The notes below the pieces were generated by a model. That model had not been told where the DNA came from. It worked only from the letters and a program-made list of their open reading frames with translations, and ran no database searches. From the IMG/VR virus record IMGVR_UViG_3300020204_000418, positions 1 to 22,217 of that record: a stretch of 22,217 nt of DNA. One strand, written 5' to 3'. Positions within the stretch are counted from its first letter, which is position 1. Each line of letters opens with the position of its first letter. The position numbers and the translations under genes were made by a program. This document shows, piece after piece, positions 3,155 through 19,266 of this stretch. This DNA is from a virus.

Positions 3155-6100
3155 CTAAGTTACTGTTTTTCCGGAAACTGTTATGGCTAAAGAGGAAGAT
3201 GTTGAAGATTGAGCTAGTAAGGTATCGCCATGATTTAAATGTTTTGGCCTTTGGATAAGTTCTACAGTGCTATTTTTAGGTATTGTTAGTTTATATGCAA
3301 GATATCCAACCCTAATCCCAGTAGTAATAATACTTCCTATTGTTCCACCTCTAAAAACTGATAGCGATAGATCGACATCAGACGTATTGCTATAGTTTGT
3401 AACATATATCGATTGTATTATCGCTGGATAAGATGAGGATGTATATACTTCTGTTCCATTTGCGGCGGAAGTGATTAGTTTTCCAACTCCAAAAAAGTCA
3501 GTATCATCTTTAGAGGCAATTGCTATAAATGCATCAATTCCACCATCATGTCCAGTCGCATTAGATGATGAAGAAGACAAAGCTTGCAATCTGATTATGT
3601 CTCGTGGATTAGCAATATGAGGTTGTTCCAAAAGTTCTATCGAAGACTCATATGGAACTAAAATTCTATTTGCAATTGGAACATTCGATCCACCATTGAA
3701 ATCATGTCTACCAGAAATGTACAAATCTCCCTGAGATTTATTTGTTACATGAATAGATTCGATTATGTATCTGTATCCAGAAGTACTTGGGAATGAATGT
3801 CCTATTCCAGGACCGGTAGAATCAGTAACAACAATAGATCCATTTCCACCAGTTACGGGAATATACTTAGAAGTATTAATTCCAACGTTAAATGTACCAT
3901 ATCCATTGTCGTCTGGAGGTGATGTAAAAGCTGGTCCTTGAATTCCTTGAATTCCCTGAGAACCATTAACTCCAGTAATTCCTTGAATTCCTTGAGCTCC
4001 ATTTTCAGTAAATGAAACTAAAACATTTGTATTTGAAAATGTGTTTACACTCGCTACAATATTTGTAATAACTATATTATACCAAGTTCCATTATCAGAA
4101 CTTAGCGAATCAATACTAAACAGAGCGTAATTACTTGGATTATCTAGATTTGAAATTCTAACATAACCTTTTGGTATATTATTAACATTAAGTATGTTTG
4201 AAAAAATTGAATCTAAATTAGTAGCAGTATCATCTTGATCAGAAATATAAAGACGATTTGCATTTCCTATTATAGTAGCATTAAATCTTAGATTACCTGC
4301 ACCAGGATCTGTTGCTGTAATACTACTGTCAAAAGTGTAATCAAAGGTTATGCCTCCCCAATTTCCAGCAGATCCTTGAATACCTTGGGTTCCTTGAGAT
4401 CCTGTGGTTCCTTGAGTTCCCGTTGTACCTTGAGAACCTTGAGAAGCATACGCACCATCAAGACCTTGAATACCTTGAAATCCAAGTCCTTGAATTCCTT
4501 GAATTCCCTGAATTCCCTGTGATCCTTGAGTCCCTTGAGAAGCGTAAGCGCCATCAAGACCTTGAATACCTTGAGATCCCGATCCTTGAATACCCTGTAT
4601 TCCTTGAATCCCTTGAGTTCCTTGAACACCCTGTGACCCTTGGATTCCTTGAATTCCTTGTACTCCTAGATTTCCTTGAATTCCCTGTGCTCCTTGAATT
4701 CCTTGAGAAGCATAAGCACCATCAAGACCTTGAGTACCTTGAATTCCCTGAATTCCTAGAATACCTTGAGAACCTTGAGTACCAGTGGTTCCTTGAGTTC
4801 CAATAGTGCCTTGAATACCCTGAATTCCTTGGATTCCTTGAGATCCTGTGGTTCCTTGGACACCTTGAATACCTTGAGATCCAGTGGTTCCCTGAATTCC
4901 TTGTCTACCTTGAATACCTTGTGATGCATATGCACCATTAAGACCCTGAATGCCTTGAATTCCTTGAGTACCTTGTCCACCAAAAACACCATTTAGTCCT
5001 TGACCACCTTGAATTCCTTGAGCACCTTGAATACCTACTTCACCAGAAACCCCAAATGTCACATTTTTCAATGTAGCACCAGGATTATAGAAAGAACTAT
5101 CAAAGTGTAGTGCATTTCCTATAGATCTTGATGTTGTTCTTACTCCAACATCATTTAAGTAATAAACAATATCAACCCCATCATAGATTATAGCAAATCT
5201 GGCGTTTGTGGTATAAGAACCAACAGCAGAAATCAATGATCCGTTTTCGTATATTTCTAAACTTCCAGCATTTAATGAAAATGCATAGTCTATTGTAGAT
5301 TCATTAACAGATGTAGATGGATTTTCGTTCAATCCAAAGTACAATATTGAACTTTCATCATTAGCTTGAGCACTAGTATATACAGATCTTGTAAATCCTT
5401 CAGCAGAATAAACTTGTGCGGTAAATCCCGTGACTGCAGAAGTTTTTACAAAATTTCTTCCGTCCGTCAATGCAATTCCGGAAAATACTGGCGTCCAAGC
5501 AGAAGAACCATAGGTTCCCTGAATTCCTTGTCTACCTTGAATACCTTGTGATGCATATGCACCATTAAGACCCTGAATGCCTTGAATTCCTTGTATTCCT
5601 TGAAGTCCTTGAATACCTTGAGCACCCTGGGTTCCAGCTCCTGTGGTTCCTTGTACTCCTAGATTTCCTTGAATACCTTGAGATCCTTGAGATGCGTATG
5701 CACCATCAGCACCCTGAGATCCAGCTCCTGGAGAACCTTGGATACCTTGAGTTCCTTGTGGTCCAGCAGAAGTGAATGAAATAAAATCTAATTTTGCATT
5801 AAGGGGAGCACCTTCATTTAAAGTAACTGATGTTCCGTCAGTGGCGGTAAATTCGCTAGAAGATAATTTAATTCCATTCAAAAATACTTCAAGATATCCA
5901 ATAGTATAACTTACATTAAATACCGTTTGACCATTAGTTGCATCAATTGTAGTTACTGTTCTACTAAAAGAAGTTCCTTGAGGTCCAGAAGTTCCTTGAG
6001 ATCCGAATCCAGGAAGACCTTGAATTCCCTGTAATCCTTGAGAACCAGTATTTCCAACACCTTGAGTTCCTTGAGTGCCTTGAATTCCCTGAAGTCCTTG

Positions 6101-8521
6101 AGCGCCTTGAGCGCCTTGAATACCTTGAGTGCCTGTGCTTCCAATTCCAGTAGTTCCTTGAGCACCTTGAGCACCATCAACCCCAACAAATCCAGAAGAA
6201 CCTTGAGTTCCCTGAGACCCACTGACTCCCTGAGAAGCATATGCACCATCCGTACCTTGAGATCCTTGAACACCCAGTCCAGCAATTCCTTGTGCTCCCT
6301 GACTTCCTACAGATGCATATGCACCATCGGTTCCTTGAGTACCTTGAGTACCTTGAGATCCCTGAGATGCAAAAGCACCTGCAATTCCTTGTGCTCCTAT
6401 TAAAGATGTTGCGGTTAGATCATAGATTACAAATGCCTCTCCATAATTTGCAGCGCTTTCAGAGTAAAAATATAAGATTGATGGTGCATCATATGGAATT
6501 CTGAATAGTGCTTCTCCTGTAGATCCTGCAGTGCCCGTATAAGTCCATCCAGTTGTATACGCAACACCACTATTATGAATTCCATCATTAGTTGTAGATA
6601 TTGCAATCTTATCACCAGCGTTTGAAGCATCAGTTTGATCAAAAACATATTCTTGACCTCTGAATAATGAAAGACTGTAATCAGCAACGTTGTCTATGTA
6701 AAATACGTTATTTCCATTAAGGTCTGCAACGGTTACTGTGAAATTTTTTGCTTCTGGATTAGATCCTTGAATACCTTGAGTACCCTGCGTTCCAAAAATA
6801 CCTTGAGAACCTTGGGAAGCATAAGCACCATCAAGACCTTGAATACCTTGAATACCTTGTCTACCTTGAGTACCTTGAATACCCTGAATACCTTGAAAAC
6901 CTTGAGATGCATATGCACCATCAAGACCTTGAATACCCTGAGTTCCTTGAAGTCCTTGAATACCTTGAGGTCCAGTGTTTCCAATACTAGCATATGCTCC
7001 ATCAAGTCCCTGCGTACCCTGTATTCCTTGAATACCTTGTCTACCTTGAATGCCTTGAAAACCACGGAGTCCTTGCGTCCCTTGAACACCTTGGATGCCT
7101 TGTGTTCCCTGAATACCTTGAACGCCTTGAATACCTTGAGAACCTTGAGAAGCATACGCACCATCAAGACCTTGAATACCTTGCGGTCCAGTGCTTCCTA
7201 TACCAACAATTCCTTGAGAACCTTGAGAAGCATATGCACCAGCAATCCCCTGAGCTCCAGTTATTCCAATTCCCTGAACACCTTGAATTCCTTGAATTCC
7301 TTGAAATCCTGTTGTACCTTTTTCTCCTGCAACTCCCTGCGGACCCTGAATACCTTGAATTCCTTGAGCACCTGTACTACCAATACTAGCATATGCACCA
7401 TCAAGACCTTGAATACCCTGAGTTCCTTGAAGTCCTTGAATACCTTGAGAACCAGTGCTACCAACACCTACAACACCCTGAGCTCCTGTGCCTTGTGGTC
7501 CAATTGGACCTTGAATACCCTGAATACCAAAATCGCCTTGAATACCTTGAGATCCCTGAGAAGCATATGCACCATCAGTTCCTTGAATCCCTTGAATGCC
7601 TTGAAGTCCTTGAATACCCTGAGGTCCAGTGCTACCAACACCTACAACACCCTGAGCTCCTGTACCTTGTGGTCCAATTGGACCTTGAATACCCTGAGAT
7701 CCCGATCCTTGAATACCCTGTATTCCTTGAATCCCTTGAGTTCCTTGGACACCCTGCGGTCCAGTACTACCAATACCTACAACACCCTGAGCTCCTGTAC
7801 CTTGTGGTCCAATTGGACCTTGAATACCTTGAGATCCCTGAGAAGCATAAGCACCATCAAGTCCTTGCGTACCCTGTATTCCTTGAATACCTTGTCCACC
7901 TTGAATACCTTGAATTCCTTGAATTCCTTGAATTCCTTGAACACCTTGTGGTCCAGTGCTACCAACACCTACAACACCTTGTGCTCCTATACCCTGTAGT
8001 CCTTGAATACCTTGAATACCCTGAATACCTTGAGAAGCATACGCGCCATCAAGACCTTGAATACCTTGAATACCCTGGCGACCTTGAGTGCCCTGTATTC
8101 CTTGAAACCCCTGAAGTCCTTGAGCTGGACCTTGAATACCCTGAGTTCCTTGAGATCCTTGAGATGCATACGCACCATCAGTTCCTTGAATCCCTTGAAT
8201 GCCTTGAGTTCCTTGAATTCCTTGAAATCCTATCGATGCATATGCACCATCAAGACCTTGAATTCCCTGCGGGCCCTGAATACCTTGAGAAGCATATGCA
8301 CCATCAAGACCTTGAATACCTTGAATACCCTGGCGACCTTGAGCACCTTGAACACCTTGAATACCACTTGCATATGGTAAAGAATTCCAATTGGTAACAC
8401 CATTACCAACTTTGAATTTTAAAGTATCTATTTCTACACCAAGTTCACCATCGGCAAGTACGGGGTTAGCTACAAACCATTCATCTGACGATCCTCTTCT
8501 AAGTTGAATCTGACTTGCCAT
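3155..8521 (-). CDS. Giant collagen-like tail fibre with interspersed globular domains
   Basis: A 1788-aa structural fibre. Residues 1-52 form an Mtd-type N-terminal module (IQLRRG, NPVLADGELG, FKVGNG, WNSLP) like the start of the 312-aa fibre next door. Collagen-like Gly-X-Y tracts follow in five blocks at about 53-586, 709-850, 919-1003, 1162-1384 and 1508-1528. Most triplets are G-I-Q or G-T-Q and proline is rare. Globular inserts separate them: a cupredoxin-like beta domain (~587-708), a short module containing YLEVFLNGIKL (~851-918), a concanavalin-like segment with ENGS and YLNDVGV (~1004-1161) and an unrecognised domain (~1385-1507). The C-terminus (~1529-1788) holds two related copies of one beta-rich module. 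About 21 copies of GAYAS/GAFAS interrupt the triplets. A strong AAGGAG stands 8 nt before the ATG. It is probably a long tail fibre or whisker; its exact place on the virion is unknown. Confidence 0.85.
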   Translation of the reverse strand: MASQIQLRRGSSDEWFVANPVLADGELGVEIDTLKFKVGNGVTNWNSLPYASGIQGVQGAQGRQGIQGIQGLDGAYASQGIQGPQGIQGLDGAYASIGFQGIQGTQGIQGIQGTDGAYASQGSQGTQGIQGPAQGLQGFQGIQGTQGRQGIQGIQGLDGAYASQGIQGIQGIQGLQGIGAQGVVGVGSTGPQGVQGIQGIQGIQGIQGGQGIQGIQGTQGLDGAYASQGSQGIQGPIGPQGTGAQGVVGIGSTGPQGVQGTQGIQGIQGIQGSGSQGIQGPIGPQGTGAQGVVGVGSTGPQGIQGLQGIQGIQGTDGAYASQGSQGIQGDFGIQGIQGPIGPQGTGAQGVVGVGSTGSQGIQGLQGTQGIQGLDGAYASIGSTGAQGIQGIQGPQGVAGEKGTTGFQGIQGIQGVQGIGITGAQGIAGAYASQGSQGIVGIGSTGPQGIQGLDGAYASQGSQGIQGVQGIQGTQGIQGVQGTQGLRGFQGIQGRQGIQGIQGTQGLDGAYASIGNTGPQGIQGLQGTQGIQGLDGAYASQGFQGIQGIQGTQGRQGIQGIQGLDGAYASQGSQGIFGTQGTQGIQGSNPEAKNFTVTVADLNGNNVFYIDNVADYSLSLFRGQEYVFDQTDASNAGDKIAISTTNDGIHNSGVAYTTGWTYTGTAGSTGEALFRIPYDAPSILYFYSESAANYGEAFVIYDLTATSLIGAQGIAGAFASQGSQGTQGTQGTDGAYASVGSQGAQGIAGLGVQGSQGTDGAYASQGVSGSQGTQGSSGFVGVDGAQGAQGTTGIGSTGTQGIQGAQGAQGLQGIQGTQGTQGVGNTGSQGLQGIQGLPGFGSQGTSGPQGTSFSRTVTTIDATNGQTVFNVSYTIGYLEVFLNGIKLSSSEFTATDGTSVTLNEGAPLNAKLDFISFTSAGPQGTQGIQGSPGAGSQGADGAYASQGSQGIQGNLGVQGTTGAGTQGAQGIQGLQGIQGIQGIQGLNGAYASQGIQGRQGIQGTYGSSAWTPVFSGIALTDGRNFVKTSAVTGFTAQVYSAEGFTRSVYTSAQANDESSILYFGLNENPSTSVNESTIDYAFSLNAGSLEIYENGSLISAVGSYTTNARFAIIYDGVDIVYYLNDVGVRTTSRSIGNALHFDSSFYNPGATLKNVTFGVSGEVGIQGAQGIQGGQGLNGVFGGQGTQGIQGIQGLNGAYASQGIQGRQGIQGTTGSQGIQGVQGTTGSQGIQGIQGIQGTIGTQGTTGTQGSQGILGIQGIQGTQGLDGAYASQGIQGAQGIQGNLGVQGIQGIQGSQGVQGTQGIQGIQGIQGSGSQGIQGLDGAYASQGTQGSQGIQGIQGIQGLGFQGIQGLDGAYASQGSQGTTGTQGTTGSQGTQGIQGSAGNWGGITFDYTFDSSITATDPGAGNLRFNATIIGNANRLYISDQDDTATNLDSIFSNILNVNNIPKGYVRISNLDNPSNYALFSIDSLSSDNGTWYNIVITNIVASVNTFSNTNVLVSFTENGAQGIQGITGVNGSQGIQGIQGPAFTSPPDDNGYGTFNVGINTSKYIPVTGGNGSIVVTDSTGPGIGHSFPSTSGYRYIIESIHVTNKSQGDLYISGRHDFNGGSNVPIANRILVPYESSIELLEQPHIANPRDIIRLQALSSSSSNATGHDGGIDAFIAIASKDDTDFFGVGKLITSAANGTEVYTSSSYPAIIQSIYVTNYSNTSDVDLSLSVFRGGTIGSIITTGIRVGYLAYKLTIPKNSTVELIQRPKHLNHGDTLLAQSSTSSSLAITVSGKTVT
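3937..8364 (-). repeat. Degenerate 9-bp tandem repeats coding for Gly-X-Gln triplets
   Basis: On the plus strand this region is dominated by degenerate copies of CCTTGAATA and CCTTGAATT, the complement of codons for G-I-Q. They lie in five blocks, at about 3937-4000, 4368-5037, 5510-5767, 5972-6396 and 6763-8364, separated by non-repetitive globular domain coding. Larger units are also repeated, for example the stretch coding G-A-Q-G-V-V-G-(V/I)-G-S-T-G, seen four times between about 7430 and 7985. The structure invites slippage and unequal recombination, so copy number may vary between related phages. It also opens long spurious reading frames on the opposite strand. Confidence 0.9.
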
Positions 8522-8533
8522 ATCTTTACTCCT

Positions 8534-9472
8534 TTATATCAATTGCGTTCCTAGAGTTCCAGAATTACTAACAAAGAGTCGGTATTGAGACCCATTAGGT
8601 GATGTTAATACTACACCTCCAGATGTATCTATCCCAACATAAGCATCACCAGATGTATAAATCCTTGACCACTTCATAGATGAGGATCCTAAATCAAATG
8701 TACTATTTAATCTAGGTAAATGAGATCCAGCGGTGATTGTTCCACCTAGAGTTAAATCATTTGTATTAGGATTAAAAGTAAAAGCAGTTGCCGTTGTTCT
8801 GACGCTTGCTGTTTGATTTGATCCGGCGGAAGCAACAAAAACTGGATAAAAAGTAGAATTGGTTGTAACTGCAGTAGCGTTTATTTGACTTGATGGTCCA
8901 GATATGCCTTGAACGCCTTGAATACCTTGAAATCCTTGAGCAGCATATGCACCATCAGTTCCCTGAAGTCCTTGGATGCCTTGAATACCTTGAATGCCTT
9001 GAGATCCTTGAGATGCATAAGCACCATCAGTTCCCTGAAGTCCTTGAATTCCCTGAGATCCAGTGATTCCCTGGACACCCTGTGTTCCCTGAAGACCTTG
9101 AGCTGGACCTTGAATTCCTTGAATTCCTTGAAATCCTTGAGCAGCGTATGCACCATCAATCCCTTGGATACCCTGGATTCCCTGAATTCCTTGAATACCT
9201 TGAGTTCCTTGAGATCCAGTTGTACCTTGAGATCCTTGAGAAGCATAAGCACCATCAGTTCCCTGAAGTCCTTGAATTCCCTGAGATCCAGTAGTTCCCT
9301 GAACTCCTTGTGGACCAACAACATAGGTTAATGAATTCCAAGGAGTAACACCATCACCAATTTTAAATTTTTTAGTATCTAATTCAGCACCAATTTCACC
9401 CTCAGCAAGAACTGGGTTTAATAAAGTCCATCTTTCGGATATTCCTCTTCTAACCTGAATTTGTGTCGTCAT
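8534..9472 (-). CDS. Short collagen-like tail fibre
   Basis: A 312-aa fibre protein, a small relative of the 1788-aa fibre downstream. Residues 1-52 form the same Mtd-type N-terminal module (IQVRRG, NPVLAEGEIGAELDT, FKIGDG, WNSL). Residues ~53-193 are Gly-X-Gln triplets with four DGAYAS or DGAYAA interruptions. The C-terminus (~194-312) is a beta-rich head containing a LNSTFDLGSSSMKWSRIY stretch, a pattern familiar from tips of phage fibres and from proteins carrying intramolecular chaperone regions. It starts 4 bp after the upstream structural gene, whose end supplies a GGTGGAG that can act as a ribosome binding site. The shared N-terminus suggests that both fibres dock on the same partner, or that one arose by duplication. 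A fibre role is well supported; its location on the baseplate is not. Confidence 0.82.
   Translation of the reverse strand: MTTQIQVRRGISERWTLLNPVLAEGEIGAELDTKKFKIGDGVTPWNSLTYVVGPQGVQGTTGSQGIQGLQGTDGAYASQGSQGTTGSQGTQGIQGIQGIQGIQGIDGAYAAQGFQGIQGIQGPAQGLQGTQGVQGITGSQGIQGLQGTDGAYASQGSQGIQGIQGIQGLQGTDGAYAAQGFQGIQGVQGISGPSSQINATAVTTNSTFYPVFVASAGSNQTASVRTTATAFTFNPNTNDLTLGGTITAGSHLPRLNSTFDLGSSSMKWSRIYTSGDAYVGIDTSGGVVLTSPNGSQYRLFVSNSGTLGTQLI
8894..9315 (-). repeat. Collagen-like triplet repeat tract in the short fibre
   Basis: Degenerate 9-bp units coding Gly-X-Gln, closely related in sequence to those of the large fibre gene. Four GAYAS/GAYAA-coding units are spaced through it. The nucleotide likeness to the tracts at 3937-8364 makes recombination between the two genes plausible. 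Confidence 0.85.
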
Positions 9473-13814: not shown

Positions 13815-15512
13815 TTAAGTATATGCTAATTCTAATAAGAGTTTTTTTCTCATAAATCTATTTAACGAATCTCCACTCATAATTACAGCGCCACCACCAG
13901 AATCTGCTGGAATCACTGTAGTTTCTTGACTCTCTTCATCTATAATAATTATTTGTTGTTGCTGCTGTTGACCCTGTAACATGGGTATATCAGCAACTGG
14001 TCTAGATATTCCCTCTCCACCAGAAAAAGAGACATGTAAATGATCATAGTGTCCACTTGTTTTCCATAATATTTCAGCAATTCCTAGTTTTGCTTTATTT
14101 TGTCTGAAAAATGCAGCAAGATTATCTAATTGTGCTTCGCTATTATGTGAGAGTGGATAATCTAATGCCTCACCATAATTATGATAAGATCTATATCCTC
14201 TCATCATAACACGTTCTCTACCAGACCCCGTGTATCCAGAATACAAATTAAAGTCTGGATGCTGCCATGGTTTATATCCTTTATCTAACAAAGATCTACC
14301 CACAGTAACAGCTTGATTATATGCTGACGATTTATTTGCACCTCTAGATTTTCTACCGTCTCCAGCACCTTTAGGTTTTTTTGCCTCTTTTAAATTTTGA
14401 TTATAAACCTCAAGAGATTGACTTGAAGTTCTATCTGTTTGACCATGAAATGTACCCAAACCTGCCCATATTTTACTCGCTTTATACATTTGAGAATCAG
14501 TCATCTTCTCAATATCTACTCCACCATTTCGCGCCAAAGCAAGAATCATTTTATTTTGTGTCTCTGGACTAAAAGTATCATCCCATTTAAACTGTCCTCT
14601 CTCCACTAGTCCCCTTAACGTTTCCGGCATAATTTGCAACGCACCAGATGCACTGGAATTATATCGATCTTTTTTAAATGGTATAATTCCACCACCTAAT
14701 CTATCTGGTAGTCTATCCGTTCCACCAAGTTTAATTGCATCATACAATTCACCAAGAGACATTTGAGATAATTTTGGGACAACCGCGCCACCATAAACTG
14801 TATTATATCCACCAGATCCACCAGTTCCTTCTAATTCTCTAACTGTGGCTATGAATGCCTTTTCTTCAGGAGTATCAGCTATTACATCAGCAGCGTTTAA
14901 ACTTCCACCACCCGCTGCGGAGACTTCTCCCATATCACCACCAACAGCAGTTTTTGCATCTTCAAACGCCTTTTCAATTCCTTTTACAGCATCCTCCATC
15001 TCTTTCATTGCTGCTTTTATTTTTCCAGATTGATCTGTAAAGTCAAAATTTCTCCAGTTCTCAAGAGTTCCAGTAACAAGTCCAAAAATTCCTTTAAACC
15101 ACTTTGTAATATTTTCTATAAAATTTTTTAAACCTTGAAATAACAAGTTGATTCTAGATATCAAATTTTCAACCATTTTAATAATATTTGGTAAATTATT
15201 AACTGCCCACCCTATCAATAAAATTCCAAGAAAATCTAAAATACTTTCTAAAAAGTTTTTAGCTGTAGAAGAAACTTTACTAAGTGGACCTTGCGTTTCA
15301 ACCTTTGATTTATTTTCCAATAAATCTTCTTTTTCTTCTCTTTTTTTTCTTTCCGCTTTTTTTACATCAAAAAGTTTTGATCTAGCAATTTTTTCTTTTT
15401 TTACTTTTGTTCGTTTTAAAATCGCTTTTTTCAAAATATTAGAGGAACTCCCAATAGCACTCTTAGTTACATTAAAAAAAGAAGTTTTTATGTTAATTGA
15501 TGATTTTATCAT
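13815..15512 (-). CDS. Tail protein with muramidase-like and M15-peptidase-like domains
   Basis: A 565-aa protein. The N-terminus is strongly basic and charged (30-70), followed by hydrophobic helices (~88-150, including FLGILLIGWAV). Residues ~217-378 resemble a GH104/lambda-type muramidase: E226/E228 in RELEGTG, SASGALQIMPETL (287-299), FSPETQ (314-319) and KIWAGLGTFHGQ (347-358). Residues ~395-497 carry an M15-type peptidase signature: SYHNYGEALD (442-451; H444, D451) and DHLH (490-493; H491, H493), the zinc-binding pattern. A Gln run (514-520) and a disordered tail follow. Both catalytic signatures look intact. It lies between the tape-measure-like and hub genes, 1 bp after the former, so it is probably carried in the tail tip for local wall digestion at infection. 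It could also be classed as a second tape measure or hub protein. Confidence 0.75.
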   Translation of the reverse strand: MIKSSINIKTSFFNVTKSAIGSSSNILKKAILKRTKVKKEKIARSKLFDVKKAERKKREEKEDLLENKSKVETQGPLSKVSSTAKNFLESILDFLGILLIGWAVNNLPNIIKMVENLISRINLLFQGLKNFIENITKWFKGIFGLVTGTLENWRNFDFTDQSGKIKAAMKEMEDAVKGIEKAFEDAKTAVGGDMGEVSAAGGGSLNAADVIADTPEEKAFIATVRELEGTGGSGGYNTVYGGAVVPKLSQMSLGELYDAIKLGGTDRLPDRLGGGIIPFKKDRYNSSASGALQIMPETLRGLVERGQFKWDDTFSPETQNKMILALARNGGVDIEKMTDSQMYKASKIWAGLGTFHGQTDRTSSQSLEVYNQNLKEAKKPKGAGDGRKSRGANKSSAYNQAVTVGRSLLDKGYKPWQHPDFNLYSGYTGSGRERVMMRGYRSYHNYGEALDYPLSHNSEAQLDNLAAFFRQNKAKLGIAEILWKTSGHYDHLHVSFSGGEGISRPVADIPMLQGQQQQQQIIIIDEESQETTVIPADSGGGAVIMSGDSLNRFMRKKLLLELAYT

Positions 15513-15513
15513 T

Positions 15514-17520
15514 TTACATCACCACATTATAATTTACTTGAGAATATAATGTATAAAAATTATCAGGATTAGAAGAGGAGATAAATGGAACTTCTGTTGC
15601 TGATCCAGATTCTAACTGATCCCCTTGCCCACCTTGTCCAGATTTAATTCTTCTATAAATAATTTGAGGTGGAGCAGCCGAACTTTGAGATGGAATAAAC
15701 GACGAATCTGAAAGTGGTGATATTTGTGGCATTGGTGCTAACGCCGATGATGGTGCTGCTGGTGATTGTGACCCAATGGGTGTAGGACTACTTCTTTCGA
15801 TTTCTGGATTTTCAGATCCTGTTCCAGATGTTTCAGATGCTTTTGGTTGTTCTGGTTTTTTACCACCATTGACCATTTTTGCAATTTCACCTATATTCGG
15901 AAGTTTTGATCCGATTTTATTAGCCATTCCCATTATTCCAGATAATCCAAGAGACTTAAGTAACGACTCTTCTCCTTGCTTAATAGATGGAATAAAGTCT
16001 CTTGCGAATAAAAATGCATCAAGTCCTAAAGAAATTCCTGGCCCCGGAGCAAATCCAACTAACGCAGACAAATCCAGTAATCCAGATAACGCCTCCAATC
16101 CAGCTCCAACAGTATCTCCATTCGCCAATCTATCATATGCAAAAGCAAGATTTATCAGTCCACCAATAACTGGAATACCCTTTGCTCCAACTTTTTTTGC
16201 TATTCCAGCAGCATCTCCAAGACCTTTTATTCCTTGTTTTTTTAAAAATGCGGAGACTTGTTTAAATCCAGGTAGTTTTTCTAATGTTCCAAAAACTTTC
16301 CCCGATATTGATTTTATTGAATTCAACATTGGTTCAAGCAATGGCTTAATTTTATTACCAAGAAATTCTAAAATTTTATTTTTTGCAGAATCTCCTATAC
16401 CTTTTATTTTATCAACTGCACCTTGAGTCAGATTTCCAACTCCTTGAAACATTCTTTGGAAAATATTTGGTTTTTGAAGTAATTTTTTAGCTTCAGTTGC
16501 ATCCACTGAAATGTATTTTCCACCAATCATTGCACCTTTTGCCTTTAATCCTTTATCAACTACTTCTTGAGCTAATTTAAGTTTAGCAGCTTGTTGACCT
16601 TTTGATAATCCACTTGTAGCGGCACTCGCTCCACCAGCTGCAGCAGCAGCCGCACCACCACCTGCACCGGCAGCCGCACCACCACCTCCTGCAGGAGGGG
16701 GAGTAGGCGCAGGAGGAGTAGGGGGTCTGAATAATTTACCAAACGTTTGTCTCCACGCGAATTTCAATATACGCTTAGTCAATGATTTTAAAATTCCAAG
16801 AACAACGAATATTCCACCATTCAATGCTAGAAATATACCACCAACTACTGCTAGATTTTTAAGGACAGTATTCTTTAAATCTTCTAATGCCTGTATATTT
16901 CCTTCTGAATTTAACTTTATTGCTGAAAGTCCCTTATCAGTCAACCAACCAGCAAACAGTATAGTAAAAAATTCCACCAAGGTAGATAGAATTCCTTGAG
17001 TCTTTTTCGCTACTGATTCAACTGGAGATAAAAGAAGATTGGATATTTTTTTTCCTAATCCAGATGATTTAGAAGATCTCCGTCTTTTTTCCTCCTCTCT
17101 TTCTTCTCTCTTAATTCTATCCTTATCTTGTTTATTTTCCTCTTCACTTTCTTTAGAAATTAAATTTGATAATGTTGATACCTGTTTTTCTAAAATAATG
17201 ATTCTTTTTAATAAAGATGCAATATCGATTACAGATGGGGAAATACCTTGCTGTTTTGCATAAGAAACAATATTAGACTTTTCTGATGTCTCAGGACTAC
17301 CAACAGGTGCTATTGATGATGGTGTTAGTTTAACAATAGCACCAGGTTTCCCAAAAACTTTTTCAGAACTAACAGTTCTTTTTCTAAAAAGTGCCTTTCT
17401 TTGTTGAGAGGAAAGATATTCACCAGTGACAGGATTTACACCACTCTGAGCAACATCTCCAAGAGTGGATCCTTTTTTATTTAAAATACTTGGAGCTCTG
17501 TAAATTTTACTAGATACCAC
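15514..17520 (-). CDS. Putative tape measure / tail lumen protein
   Basis: A 668-aa protein with features of a tail tape measure. A coiled-coil-like charged stretch at ~98-148 ends in a run of Arg, Glu and Lys. Two strongly hydrophobic segments follow (~177-195 and ~223-248), then a low-complexity Pro/Gly/Ala linker (266-305) and further helical and hydrophobic regions. The C-terminus is Pro/Ser/Gln-rich. The start is GTG, overlapping the end of the small -1 frame ORF by 11 bp. Tape measure genes usually follow the tail assembly chaperone pair directly, as here. T4's equivalent is gp29, but no clear sequence likeness to it can be claimed. The FxxxLFAGW segment resembles one in the next protein, hinting at a shared module. 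Alternative: a baseplate hub component. Confidence 0.58.
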   Translation of the reverse strand: MVSSKIYRAPSILNKKGSTLGDVAQSGVNPVTGEYLSSQQRKALFRKRTVSSEKVFGKPGAIVKLTPSSIAPVGSPETSEKSNIVSYAKQQGISPSVIDIASLLKRIIILEKQVSTLSNLISKESEEENKQDKDRIKREEREEEKRRRSSKSSGLGKKISNLLLSPVESVAKKTQGILSTLVEFFTILFAGWLTDKGLSAIKLNSEGNIQALEDLKNTVLKNLAVVGGIFLALNGGIFVVLGILKSLTKRILKFAWRQTFGKLFRPPTPPAPTPPPAGGGGAAAGAGGGAAAAAAGGASAATSGLSKGQQAAKLKLAQEVVDKGLKAKGAMIGGKYISVDATEAKKLLQKPNIFQRMFQGVGNLTQGAVDKIKGIGDSAKNKILEFLGNKIKPLLEPMLNSIKSISGKVFGTLEKLPGFKQVSAFLKKQGIKGLGDAAGIAKKVGAKGIPVIGGLINLAFAYDRLANGDTVGAGLEALSGLLDLSALVGFAPGPGISLGLDAFLFARDFIPSIKQGEESLLKSLGLSGIMGMANKIGSKLPNIGEIAKMVNGGKKPEQPKASETSGTGSENPEIERSSPTPIGSQSPAAPSSALAPMPQISPLSDSSFIPSQSSAAPPQIIYRRIKSGQGGQGDQLESGSATEVPFISSSNPDNFYTLYSQVNYNVVM

Positions 17521-17689
17521 TATTTTGCTGATGCTTTAGATTTTCCTCTTCCAGATGCTGTTGTAAAAGTGTAAGATAAATTTCCTTTTCCCAAGGAATC
17601 ATATTTTCAAGCTCTGTCAAACTATATTTATGGTGTTGTATGAGGGCGAAATTAATTTTATAATGTGACGCAAGATCAGTATGCGCCAT
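17510..17689 (-). CDS. Small -1 frame ORF after gp26-like gene (frameshift extension)
   Basis: A 59-codon ORF starting MAHTDLASHYKINFALI and containing SLTELENMIPWEKEIYLTLL, then Glu-rich and Gln-rich residues. The P-W-E-x-E-I-Y-x-x-L-L pattern resembles the second ORF of tail assembly chaperone pairs in lambda-, P2- and actinophage-type phages. The ATG lies 2 nt after the gp26-like TAG. That TAG is in a different frame, and the -1 frame is open from the slippery site through CGG ATA GGA into this ATG. The nearest AGGA is too close to the ATG for good initiation. The main product is therefore probably a 300-aa fusion (238 + 3 + 59), although independent re-initiation after the nearby stop is also possible. 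It ends inside the start of the tape-measure-like gene. The ORF is certain; frameshift use is inference. Confidence 0.75.
   Translation of the reverse strand: MAHTDLASHYKINFALIQHHKYSLTELENMIPWEKEIYLTLLQQHLEEENLKHQQNSGI
17666..17688 (-). promoter_or_regulatory. Candidate frameshift-stimulating hairpin
   Basis: Nine nucleotides after the slippery heptamer the minus strand reads TGGCGCA (17688-17682), a 9-nt loop, then TGCGTCA (17672-17666). The arms pair over 7 positions with one G-U. The spacer length is in the range typical of stimulatory structures. A second small stem just upstream of the heptamer (CTGGA at 17721-17717 with TCCAG at 17709-17705) is also possible, but it would hide the GGAGGG. 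Confidence 0.6.
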
Positions 17690-17691
17690 TC

Positions 17692-18411
17692 CTATCCGAA
17701 AAAACTGGATAATCCCTCCAGCACTACCTCACTTTCAACACCAGTGTTTGGATTCTTTACTTTAATTGTATGTGATAATTTAGGCATGGTCTCAAAAAAT
17801 GCCTCAACTTCTTTAAATTGTTTAGAACTTAATTGCTCAATGAATTCATTTAGTTCTTTTTTGCTGCAATCAGATGCAGACCAAGATTCTTCCTCATTGT
17901 AAATTGTATCAATACAGGATGAAATTAAATTGAAAGATTCATCAACTCCAATATTACCATCAATTGTAAAGTTAGATTTAATAAACTCTGAGAGAGATGG
18001 GTATCTCATCCTCATTGTTAAACTGTCTCCCAAAACAATGTCTCTTTTATGATCTGGATTTGCACAAACTTTAATCTCATCCAAATTTATTGAAACAGGA
18101 ACTTGAGTTTCATTGTCATCTGGACAAGTTACTAAAACTTCAACATCCTCACCGACAGATTTTCCACGAATATTTAAAAACAAATATTCAATATCAAAAG
18201 TAGAAAGATCATCTACTTTAATTCCTTTAGATAAAATACAGTTTCCAATTACTGTTTTAATTGCATTAGTAATCTGTTTTTCATCCTCAGACTCCATTGC
18301 AATGATAAGAATTTTTTCTTCTTTAACTAAAAAAGGTCTATATCTAATTGCTTTTTTAGTCGATGGTAATTCCAATTCATAAATTGGAGTATTAATCTTT
18401 GGTAAAGGCAT
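17692..18411 (-). CDS. 26: gp26-like baseplate hub / tail assembly chaperone protein
   Basis: A 239-aa protein of the T4 gp26 baseplate-hub family (T4 gp26 is 208 aa). The N-terminal signature is PLPKINTPIYELELPS, then a KAIRYRPFLVKEEKILIIAMES motif (19-40), a Cys-containing mid-region (VTCPDDNETQVPVS) and an MRMRYPSL-SEF segment near 132-142. The rest is helical and ends in LSSFFG. T4 gp26 is counted among hub assembly factors. Here the gene sits between the tube protein and the tape-measure-like gene and ends in a slippery sequence with a -1 ORF. This is where tail assembly chaperones lie in other tailed phages, so a chaperone role is proposed. A NATAAATA late promoter stands 27 nt before its ATG. 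The family call is good; the chaperone function is inferred. Confidence 0.78.
   Translation of the reverse strand: MPLPKINTPIYELELPSTKKAIRYRPFLVKEEKILIIAMESEDEKQITNAIKTVIGNCILSKGIKVDDLSTFDIEYLFLNIRGKSVGEDVEVLVTCPDDNETQVPVSINLDEIKVCANPDHKRDIVLGDSLTMRMRYPSLSEFIKSNFTIDGNIGVDESFNLISSCIDTIYNEEESWSASDCSKKELNEFIEQLSSKQFKEVEAFFETMPKLSHTIKVKNPNTGVESEVVLEGLSSFFG
17698..17704 (-). promoter_or_regulatory. Candidate -1 frameshift slippery heptamer TTTTTTC
   Basis: Read on the minus strand, the gp26-like gene ends AGT TTT TTC GGA TAG. The heptamer T TTT TTC therefore sits in the X XXY YYZ phase needed for simultaneous -1 slippage. GGAGGG (17714-17719) lies 9 nt upstream, as in the dnaX-type Shine-Dalgarno stimulator. 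The slipped frame has no stop before the 59-codon ORF. Confidence 0.75.
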
Positions 18412-18438: not shown

Positions 18439-18446
18439 TATTTATT
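18439..18446 (-). promoter_or_regulatory. T4-type late promoter for gp26-like operon
   Basis: AATAAATA on the minus strand exactly matches the NATAAATA late promoter consensus described for T4-like cyanophages (TATAAATA in T4). It ends 27 nt before the gp26-like ATG and lies at the stop codon of the preceding gene. It would allow transcription of the long minus block from gp26 through the fibres. Confidence 0.65.
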
Positions 18447-19266
18447 ATGACAAACCTCGATTAATATCAATTCCGGGAGTAATGGGATTTCTAAAATTTG
18501 CCCCTGTCGATCTTACAAGTTTAGTTGGATCAAACGTCGCTGCGCCAACTTCATTTATCAATTTGTCGGTTGTTGAACTTAAATAATCTGGTGGTGATGA
18601 TGATTTTGCTTGTTTCTGAAGTGTAGTTAAATCAGAACCTTTATTATTATCTACATTTTGTATAATGGATCTACTGGATGATTGTCCAACAATATATCTT
18701 TCAAAATTAAAGGATGCGTTAACCTTTAAAATTTGAGAAGAATCGTATGAAACTGGAGTTGAAGAAAGATTAATCGGAAACATACCAATAAAAGAATATT
18801 CAAGTTCTCTAGCGTAGTCTTTATCGAATTTTATAATTTTAGTTTGATTGCATTTATATTGTTCTGGATACCTCATGCGAAAATAGTATCCTTCAGATCT
18901 AGTATTTTCTGGCGATCCTCCCGCAGCATATTCCATCCAATGCTCAATAAATTTTAAAGTTTTATAGTCCGAGTCAACATAAAATTCCAAATCAAGTTGT
19001 GTATAAATTCTGGTGTGAGCCATTTTTTCCATCACACCTATAAAATTTCCATTAATATCAGCAGTAGCTAAACTACTCCCAGGTAAAGACGCTGATGAGC
19101 ATAAAAGACCAACTTCATTAGATACAAATGTGGAGTTAACTCCCCTAGTGTTCAAATATTTTATTAAGTTTGGAGAAAGACCACCAAAAATTACCTGATA
19201 ATGAGAAGTTTGTGCAAGATTAGTAACTAATGGTTTAAAGTCAGATATTTTTTTGGGACTAACCAC
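18445..19266 (-). CDS. Tail tube fold protein, gp54/gp19-like
   Basis: A 273-aa protein of the tail tube / tube initiator group. Residues ~15-30 read NLAQTSHYQVIFGGLSP. A LCSSASLPGSSLATADINGN segment (50-69) and the following TRIYTQLDLEFYVDSDYKTLKFIEHWMEYAAGG (81-113) are typical strands and helix of the gp19/gp54 fold. FRMRYPEQYKC and a beta strand pair with SFIGMFPINLSS follow. T4 gp19 (163 aa) is shorter and gp54 (320 aa) longer, so the longer C-terminal tail (~200-273) favours a gp54-like tube initiator at the baseplate, but the major tube protein cannot be excluded. The start is GTG with only a weak AGG upstream. It is the first gene of the minus block and is divergent from gp4. Confidence 0.7.
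   Translation of the reverse strand: MVSPKKISDFKPLVTNLAQTSHYQVIFGGLSPNLIKYLNTRGVNSTFVSNEVGLLCSSASLPGSSLATADINGNFIGVMEKMAHTRIYTQLDLEFYVDSDYKTLKFIEHWMEYAAGGSPENTRSEGYYFRMRYPEQYKCNQTKIIKFDKDYARELEYSFIGMFPINLSSTPVSYDSSQILKVNASFNFERYIVGQSSSRSIIQNVDNNKGSDLTTLQKQAKSSSPPDYLSSTTDKLINEVGAATFDPTKLVRSTGANFRNPITPGIDINRGLS

Follow-up and report, generated by a model that had tools for sequence, protein, structure and literature searches.

In this work we analyze the gp26-like gene of a 22,217-base IMG/VR record of a marine virus related to phage T4, referred to as the window throughout, and we present comparative evidence that this gene encodes a tail assembly chaperone (TAC) and would be translated with a programmed -1 ribosomal frameshift, a reading to which we assign a probability of roughly 0.93. 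Most ribosomes would terminate at the TAG codon of the gene to yield a short form of 239 amino acids (aa), and a fraction of them would slip at the heptamer T TTT TTC to generate a long form of 300 aa, the last 62 residues of which would constitute a gp51 domain. The short and long forms would correspond to the T4 proteins gp26 and gp51. If the analogy with the gpG/gpGT proteins of phage lambda (PMC5009743) holds, the short form would serve to coat the tape measure protein, and the role of the extension would be to bring in the tail tube or the hub. The core idea is in print, and the value of the present analysis lies in the breadth and strength of its comparative evidence.

The gp26-like gene is found on the minus strand (17692 to 18411) in the list of open reading frames (ORFs), and its 0-frame product, the putative short chaperone (TAC-N), matches the PF12322 (T4_baseplate) profile over residues 9-238 with 258.7 bits against a gathering cut-off of 24.5 (E-value 5.6e-77), as well as phrog_150 ‘baseplate hub’ (E-value 8.3e-84). 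Among the phage records listed, the nearest protein is that of Synechococcus phage S-SKS1 (82% identity). An earlier note on this DNA had described the 3′ end of the gene as AGT TTT TTC GGA TAG with T TTT TTC in -1 phase, and this description is confirmed on the minus strand, where the heptamer spans positions 17698 to 17704. From the heptamer on, the codons of the -1 frame are CGG ATA GGA ATG, and the frame continues as a 59-codon ORF (17689 to 17510, minus strand), in agreement with the fusion length that had been predicted (238 + 3 + 59 = 300 aa). The complete extension, RIG plus 59 codons (17510 to 17698, minus strand), would be the C-terminal, gp51-like domain (TAC-C) of the long product. 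TTTTTTY heptamers are common in the window (49 seen, 44.6 expected), and the presence of the heptamer at a single site was therefore discarded as evidence by itself in favor of conservation.

A set of 190 single-gene-type gp26 loci was compiled from IMG/VR and named phages, selecting loci by gp26 similarity and not by the heptamer. Two of the searches contributed the best 80 of 595 and the best 80 of 598 confirmed stretches, which biases the sample in favor of close relatives. The set includes one locus with a gp26 identical to that of the window (L001), and it excludes the window itself (L081), a locus whose match begins at residue 3 (L156) and the T4-type loci (L083, L084, L089, L174-L182 and L204). 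The in-frame heptamer T TTT TTY occurs in the last codons of gp26 in 169 of the 190 loci, a result strongly in favor on the first check proposed in the earlier note, conservation of the heptamer phase, and in 160 of these 169 a C closes the run, one codon ahead of the stop. The codon preceding the heptamer varies among 50 representatives at 80% identity (AGT in 24, TCT in 12, GAT in 7, GCT in 6 and AAT in 1) but has T as its last base in every case; a quick tree of 94 heptamer-bearing representatives (90% identity) requires at least 23 changes of this codon, with the final T kept throughout. This tree-based count is a fairer measure than the naive log10 P values obtained at 80% (-12.3 and -9.5), which ignore relatedness. 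Within the same 50 dereplicated genes, the terminal Phe-Phe pair is encoded with the heptamer in 50/50 cases, versus 0/58 for internal pairs. Conservation of the heptamer is hence far beyond chance, and it extends over very divergent phages: Kyanoviridae, Mylasvirus, Aeromonas phages of the genera Ceceduovirus and Angelvirus, Pootjesviridae, Emdodecavirus, Menderavirus and Xanthomonas phage X1.

The reading frame entered by a -1 slip is conserved along with the heptamer. Its open stretch measures 56-68 codons in each of the 165 heptamer-bearing loci where no contig end cuts it (one does in L067, L070, L113 and L131), a result strongly in favor on the second comparative check that had been proposed; the +1 frame past the heptamer has a median length of 6 codons and a maximum of 28 across the 169 loci. 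In none of the eleven records of heptamer-bearing phages that were examined is the extension joined to gp26: it appears as a separate small ORF in eight and is unannotated in three (S-MbCM100, AS-yj and Atu_ph04).

The earlier note overlooked that the small ORF belongs with the gp51 family. Its match to phrog_634 ‘baseplate hub assembly catalyst’ (gp51) covers positions 60-116 of 121 (E-value 1.6e-26), and a further match falls on the last part of the gp26 family phrog_150 (positions 239-281 of 282, E-value 1.6e-6). Because the match between T4-type gp51 proteins and phrog_150 extends over almost the whole length, both parts are already united within this profile as a single chain. The gp51 protein of RB33 carries PF12322 over residues 1-201 (E-value 4.2e-55) and phrog_634 over residues 147-246, and in a MAFFT alignment the extension rows fall directly behind Phe-Phe, opposite the gp51 C-terminus. 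Judged by these profile matches and by the alignment, T4-type gp51 is a gp26 paralog with the extension fused in frame, and the single gene with its predicted frameshift is the counterpart of the T4 pair 26/51. Separate, divergently transcribed gp26 and gp51 genes are present in 13/13 T4-type loci, with one gp26 cut by the contig end. In a tree of 50 rows, from which the near-copies L175-L177 were left out, ten T4-type gp26/gp51 pairs lie apart from 30 single-gene rows (support 95/94). The tree is midpoint-rooted and contains long branches (2.28 for the gp51 stem, 2.16 for the gp26 of L089), so an origin of the two-gene form by duplication within the T4 lineage is favored, not proven.

This correspondence bears on several published observations. 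Sullivan et al. 2010 describe cyanophage gp51 as being approximately 20% as long and devoid of the first ~200 residues (PMC3037559), which is explained if those residues come from gp26 via the frameshift. The same source calls gp51 missing in Aeh1 (PMC3037559); in the Aeromonas phages AS-yj and PX29 the -1 extension is present, with no ATG near the junction. The link between gp26 and the chaperone family suggested in the earlier note is borne out at the functional level, since a review that also reports gp51 to be absent from the particle counts T4 gp26 and gp51 among the hub-assembly chaperones (PMC3004832), and since the predicted frameshift product corresponds to gp51.

Candidate stimulatory elements are located on both sides of the heptamer, at the spacings previously noted, and might aid the slip. 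The sequence GGAGGG (17714 to 17719, minus strand), 9 nt 5′ of the heptamer, resembles an internal Shine-Dalgarno (SD) sequence and could act as such. In 49/50 representatives the 20 nt preceding the heptamer contain an SD-like 4-mer, a count taken without a control set, and the conserved Glu codon at this site is GAG in 28/42 cases, versus 414/1203 Glu codons across these genes. Downstream, a possible stimulatory hairpin (17666 to 17688, minus strand) starts 9 nt past the heptamer, with 7 bp predicted by folding in the window and as many as 11 bp among close relatives. Averaged over representatives, the downstream fold lies 1.0 standard deviations lower than windows taken upstream in the same gene. 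In the clade of the window (35 sequences), 88.1% of the cells are paired, versus 25-49% when the helix is slid, and the covariation score is above all 500 shuffles. The number of pairs changed on both sides is reached by 133/500 shuffles and that of further pair types by 474/500, so neither stands out, and a single pair (17 G-C, 15 U-A), located in sequence that is also coding, holds most of the covariation signal. The helix was compared across 91 loci, two of which were too short. At the same positions, 5/11 pairs form in at most two of 15 other ATG-bearing loci, and among 39 loci lacking that ATG, 8/11 pairs are each formed by a minority. The conservation of the stem, the third check proposed in the earlier note, thus holds within the clade of the window and fails at these positions outside it. 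A universal stimulatory stem was rejected for this reason; other predicted hairpins are present in some loci outside the clade.

Two rival explanations dispense with ribosomal slippage. In a scheme of translational coupling, ribosomes would stop at the end of gp26 and re-initiate at an ATG located 2 nt on, making a separate small gp51-like protein. The window does read TAG GA ATG, an ATG occupies the stop+5 position in 52 of the 94 representatives at 90% identity, and the separate small ORF annotated in eight of the eleven phage records examined accords with this scheme, which we nonetheless consider improbable. The stop+5 position is a Leu codon in 38 of those 94 representatives, and 19 of the 50 representatives at 80% identity contain no ATG in the first eight codons, 18 of them being also devoid of GTG and TTG. 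On the tree, 11 or more changes in the presence of the ATG are needed while the extension persists, and by this comparison the ATG is dispensable for the extension. Coupling would, moreover, conserve neither the in-phase heptamer nor the final T of the preceding codon, and the T4 homolog gp51 is a fusion.

Transcriptional slippage on the run of six Ts, which is long enough to merit consideration, would generate a mixed mRNA population and the same fusion with no ribosomal slippage, so that the protein product would be similar. We regard this mechanism as less likely still, on arguments alone: a C closes the run, one codon ahead of the stop, in nearly all heptamer-bearing loci, and the combination of an SD-like sequence with a clade-specific hairpin suits ribosomal slippage better.

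Several points weigh against a programmed frameshift as we propose it. An in-frame ATG lies within eight codons past the heptamer in 31/50 representatives, including the window, so a separate small protein could be made in the window and in 30 others. The hairpin of the window barely exceeds other parts of the gene in predicted stability, the 60 nt downstream of the heptamer folding at -8.9 kcal/mol versus a mean of -8.0 for upstream windows, and it is limited to the clade of the window. Genetic studies, as cited in the aforementioned review, place T4 gp26 in the hub (PMC3004832), a location ill-suited to a pure chaperone. Finally, 21 loci, comprising Vi01, 18 relatives from IMG/VR and two Vibrio phages, have the -1 extension and no canonical heptamer.

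These 21 loci follow a pattern of their own. The gp26 gene ends in GAR ATT TTC ATY TAA in Vi01 (Ackermannviridae) and its 18 relatives (L085, L183-L200) and with CTT TTY in the two Vibrio phages (L170, L171), and five representatives of the group form one clade (support 100/99). A gp51-like -1 extension was recognized by eye in 21/21 loci; tblastn with the extension found it in Vi01 at E ≤ 1 and returned no match in the two Vibrio phages at E ≤ 10. At the position where 3/19 Vi01-type loci show an ATG overlapping the gp26 stop, the other 16 show ATT, and both Vibrio phages have ATG. The site (A/C)TT TTY takes the place of T TTT TTY, so that only the A-site Phe tRNA would re-pair fully, and the base before ATT varies between A and G in Vi01-type sites. 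By analogy, these phages might conceivably shift at a degenerate site resembling that of T7 gene 10, a suggestion that we put forward as doubtful. A degenerate site of the Vi01 type was not found described for the gp26/gp51 family in the literature compared, which covers Vladimirov et al. 2022 through papers that cite it.

Structure prediction yielded models for both proteins, with a predicted local distance difference test score (pLDDT) of 94 for a T4-type gp51 (the natural fusion of L174), in which the C-terminal extension is helical, and of 86 for the gp26 of the window. Comparison of the gp51 model with the PDB gave no match at E ≤ 0.001 among the matches listed (50 of 151); of 992 chains realigned, none reached Z ≥ 5, and no tail assembly chaperone appears among the fold matches listed. 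The BFVD matches consist of gp51 and gp26 relatives plus a weak match to a ‘tape measure chaperone’ of Citrobacter phage Moon (E-value 2.7e-3). In the Moon record (L205, 8607-10245), a ‘GT-like fusion protein’ of the same length is assembled from gp27 and gp28, and gp26 and gp51 are separate. This assignment, which conflicts with gp26/gp51 as the chaperone pair, was not adopted. The Moon protein weakly matched by the gp51 model is of the size of such a gp27-gp28 fusion, and a T4-type gp26 (L083, 2516-3142) weakly matches phrog_1140 ‘baseplate hub distal subunit’, a name given to gp28 (E-value 9.4e-4); gp28 may be a further paralog of gp26 and gp51.

A chaperone gene of the G/GT type would lie between the tail tube gene and the tape measure gene. 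A clear tail tube-like gene lies directly upstream of gp26 (18445 to 19266, minus strand; PF23849 Phage_TTP_2, E-value 1.3e-20; phrog_45 tail tube, E-value 8e-42). Directly downstream, a 668-aa ORF with a GTG start (15514 to 17520, minus strand) would, from its position, probably encode the tape measure protein; it weakly matches phrog_991 ‘tail length tape measure protein’ (E-value 4.3e-4), and phrog_35997 and phrog_790 match better. In the gp26-like gene itself, a slippery site in the correct phase precedes the 0-frame stop, and the -1 frame stays open to encode a C-terminal extension, as in genes of the G/GT type. Elsewhere on the minus strand of the window, positions 13815-15512 encode an endolysin-like protein of 565 aa (phrog_90, E-value 5.7e-34), with a weak match to the base spike family phrog_8240 near its C-terminus. 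Positions 3155-8521 and 8534-9472 encode two highly repetitive proteins (1788 and 312 aa) with collagen-like GIQGIQG and DGAYASQG repeats, and these two genes are overlapped in other frames by many other long ORFs.

A frameshift at the end of gp26 would explain why cyanophage gp51 seems to be truncated by about 200 residues, and why the small ORF often goes without a start codon or annotation. Many phage annotations could be corrected on this basis: in a tblastn search with the extension, 584 phage-collection records give a match at E ≤ 0.1, among them many near-copies and a few T4-type records. T4-like phages would then embody one function in two genetic designs, as one recoded gene or as two paralogs.

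A conserved frameshift in tail genes of double-stranded DNA phages, with lambda gpG/gpGT as an instance, was reportedly described by Xu et al. in 2004. The window is likened to lambda G/GT by its predicted frameshift, and not by similarity of sequence or fold. According to a further article, neither gpG nor gpGT is in the virion, and T4 is named as an exception to the frameshift of double-stranded DNA phages (PMC5009743). The same article gives T7 gene 10 as a -1 shift at an imperfect heptamer, with X_XX = G_GU (PMC5009743). As a capsid gene, T7 gene 10 bears only on the non-canonical sites of the Vi01 clade, through the imperfect P-site part of its motif. The remainder of the T7 slip site is UUUC.

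A nearer parallel is the TAC locus of phage Adele and the Vandenendeviridae/Andersonviridae, for which a 2025 paper reports a -1 frameshift at a poly-T motif ending TAC-N and a -1 frame that is open in every Vandenendeviridae allele compared (PMC12846349). This locus has in common with the window a poly-T -1 frameshift at the end of TAC-N, predicted in the case of the window, and the open -1 frame, and differs from it in its motif (GTTTTT) and in belonging to another phage lineage.

The closest system is that of the T4-like phages themselves. Vladimirov, Gautam and Davidson (Virology 2022) are said to have found the frameshift conserved in several T4-like groups, with T4 using genes 26 and 51. 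The T4-like gp26/gp51 chaperones belong to the same families as the proteins of the window (PF12322 and the gp51 extension). Two papers that cite this work attribute to it, respectively, the presence of poly-T slippery signals in the TAC-N genes of T4-like phages (PMC12846349) and the finding that some T4-like phages, in place of frameshifting, carry a short chaperone gene together with a long, fused one (PMC10885494). The core claim is therefore already known: the frameshift of T4-like phages is in print as a bioinformatic proposal, of which the window offers one more instance, and the belief expressed in the earlier note that it was not established for the gp26 group was mistaken. T4-type phages use two genes for this system, whereas the window has a single gene with a predicted frameshift.

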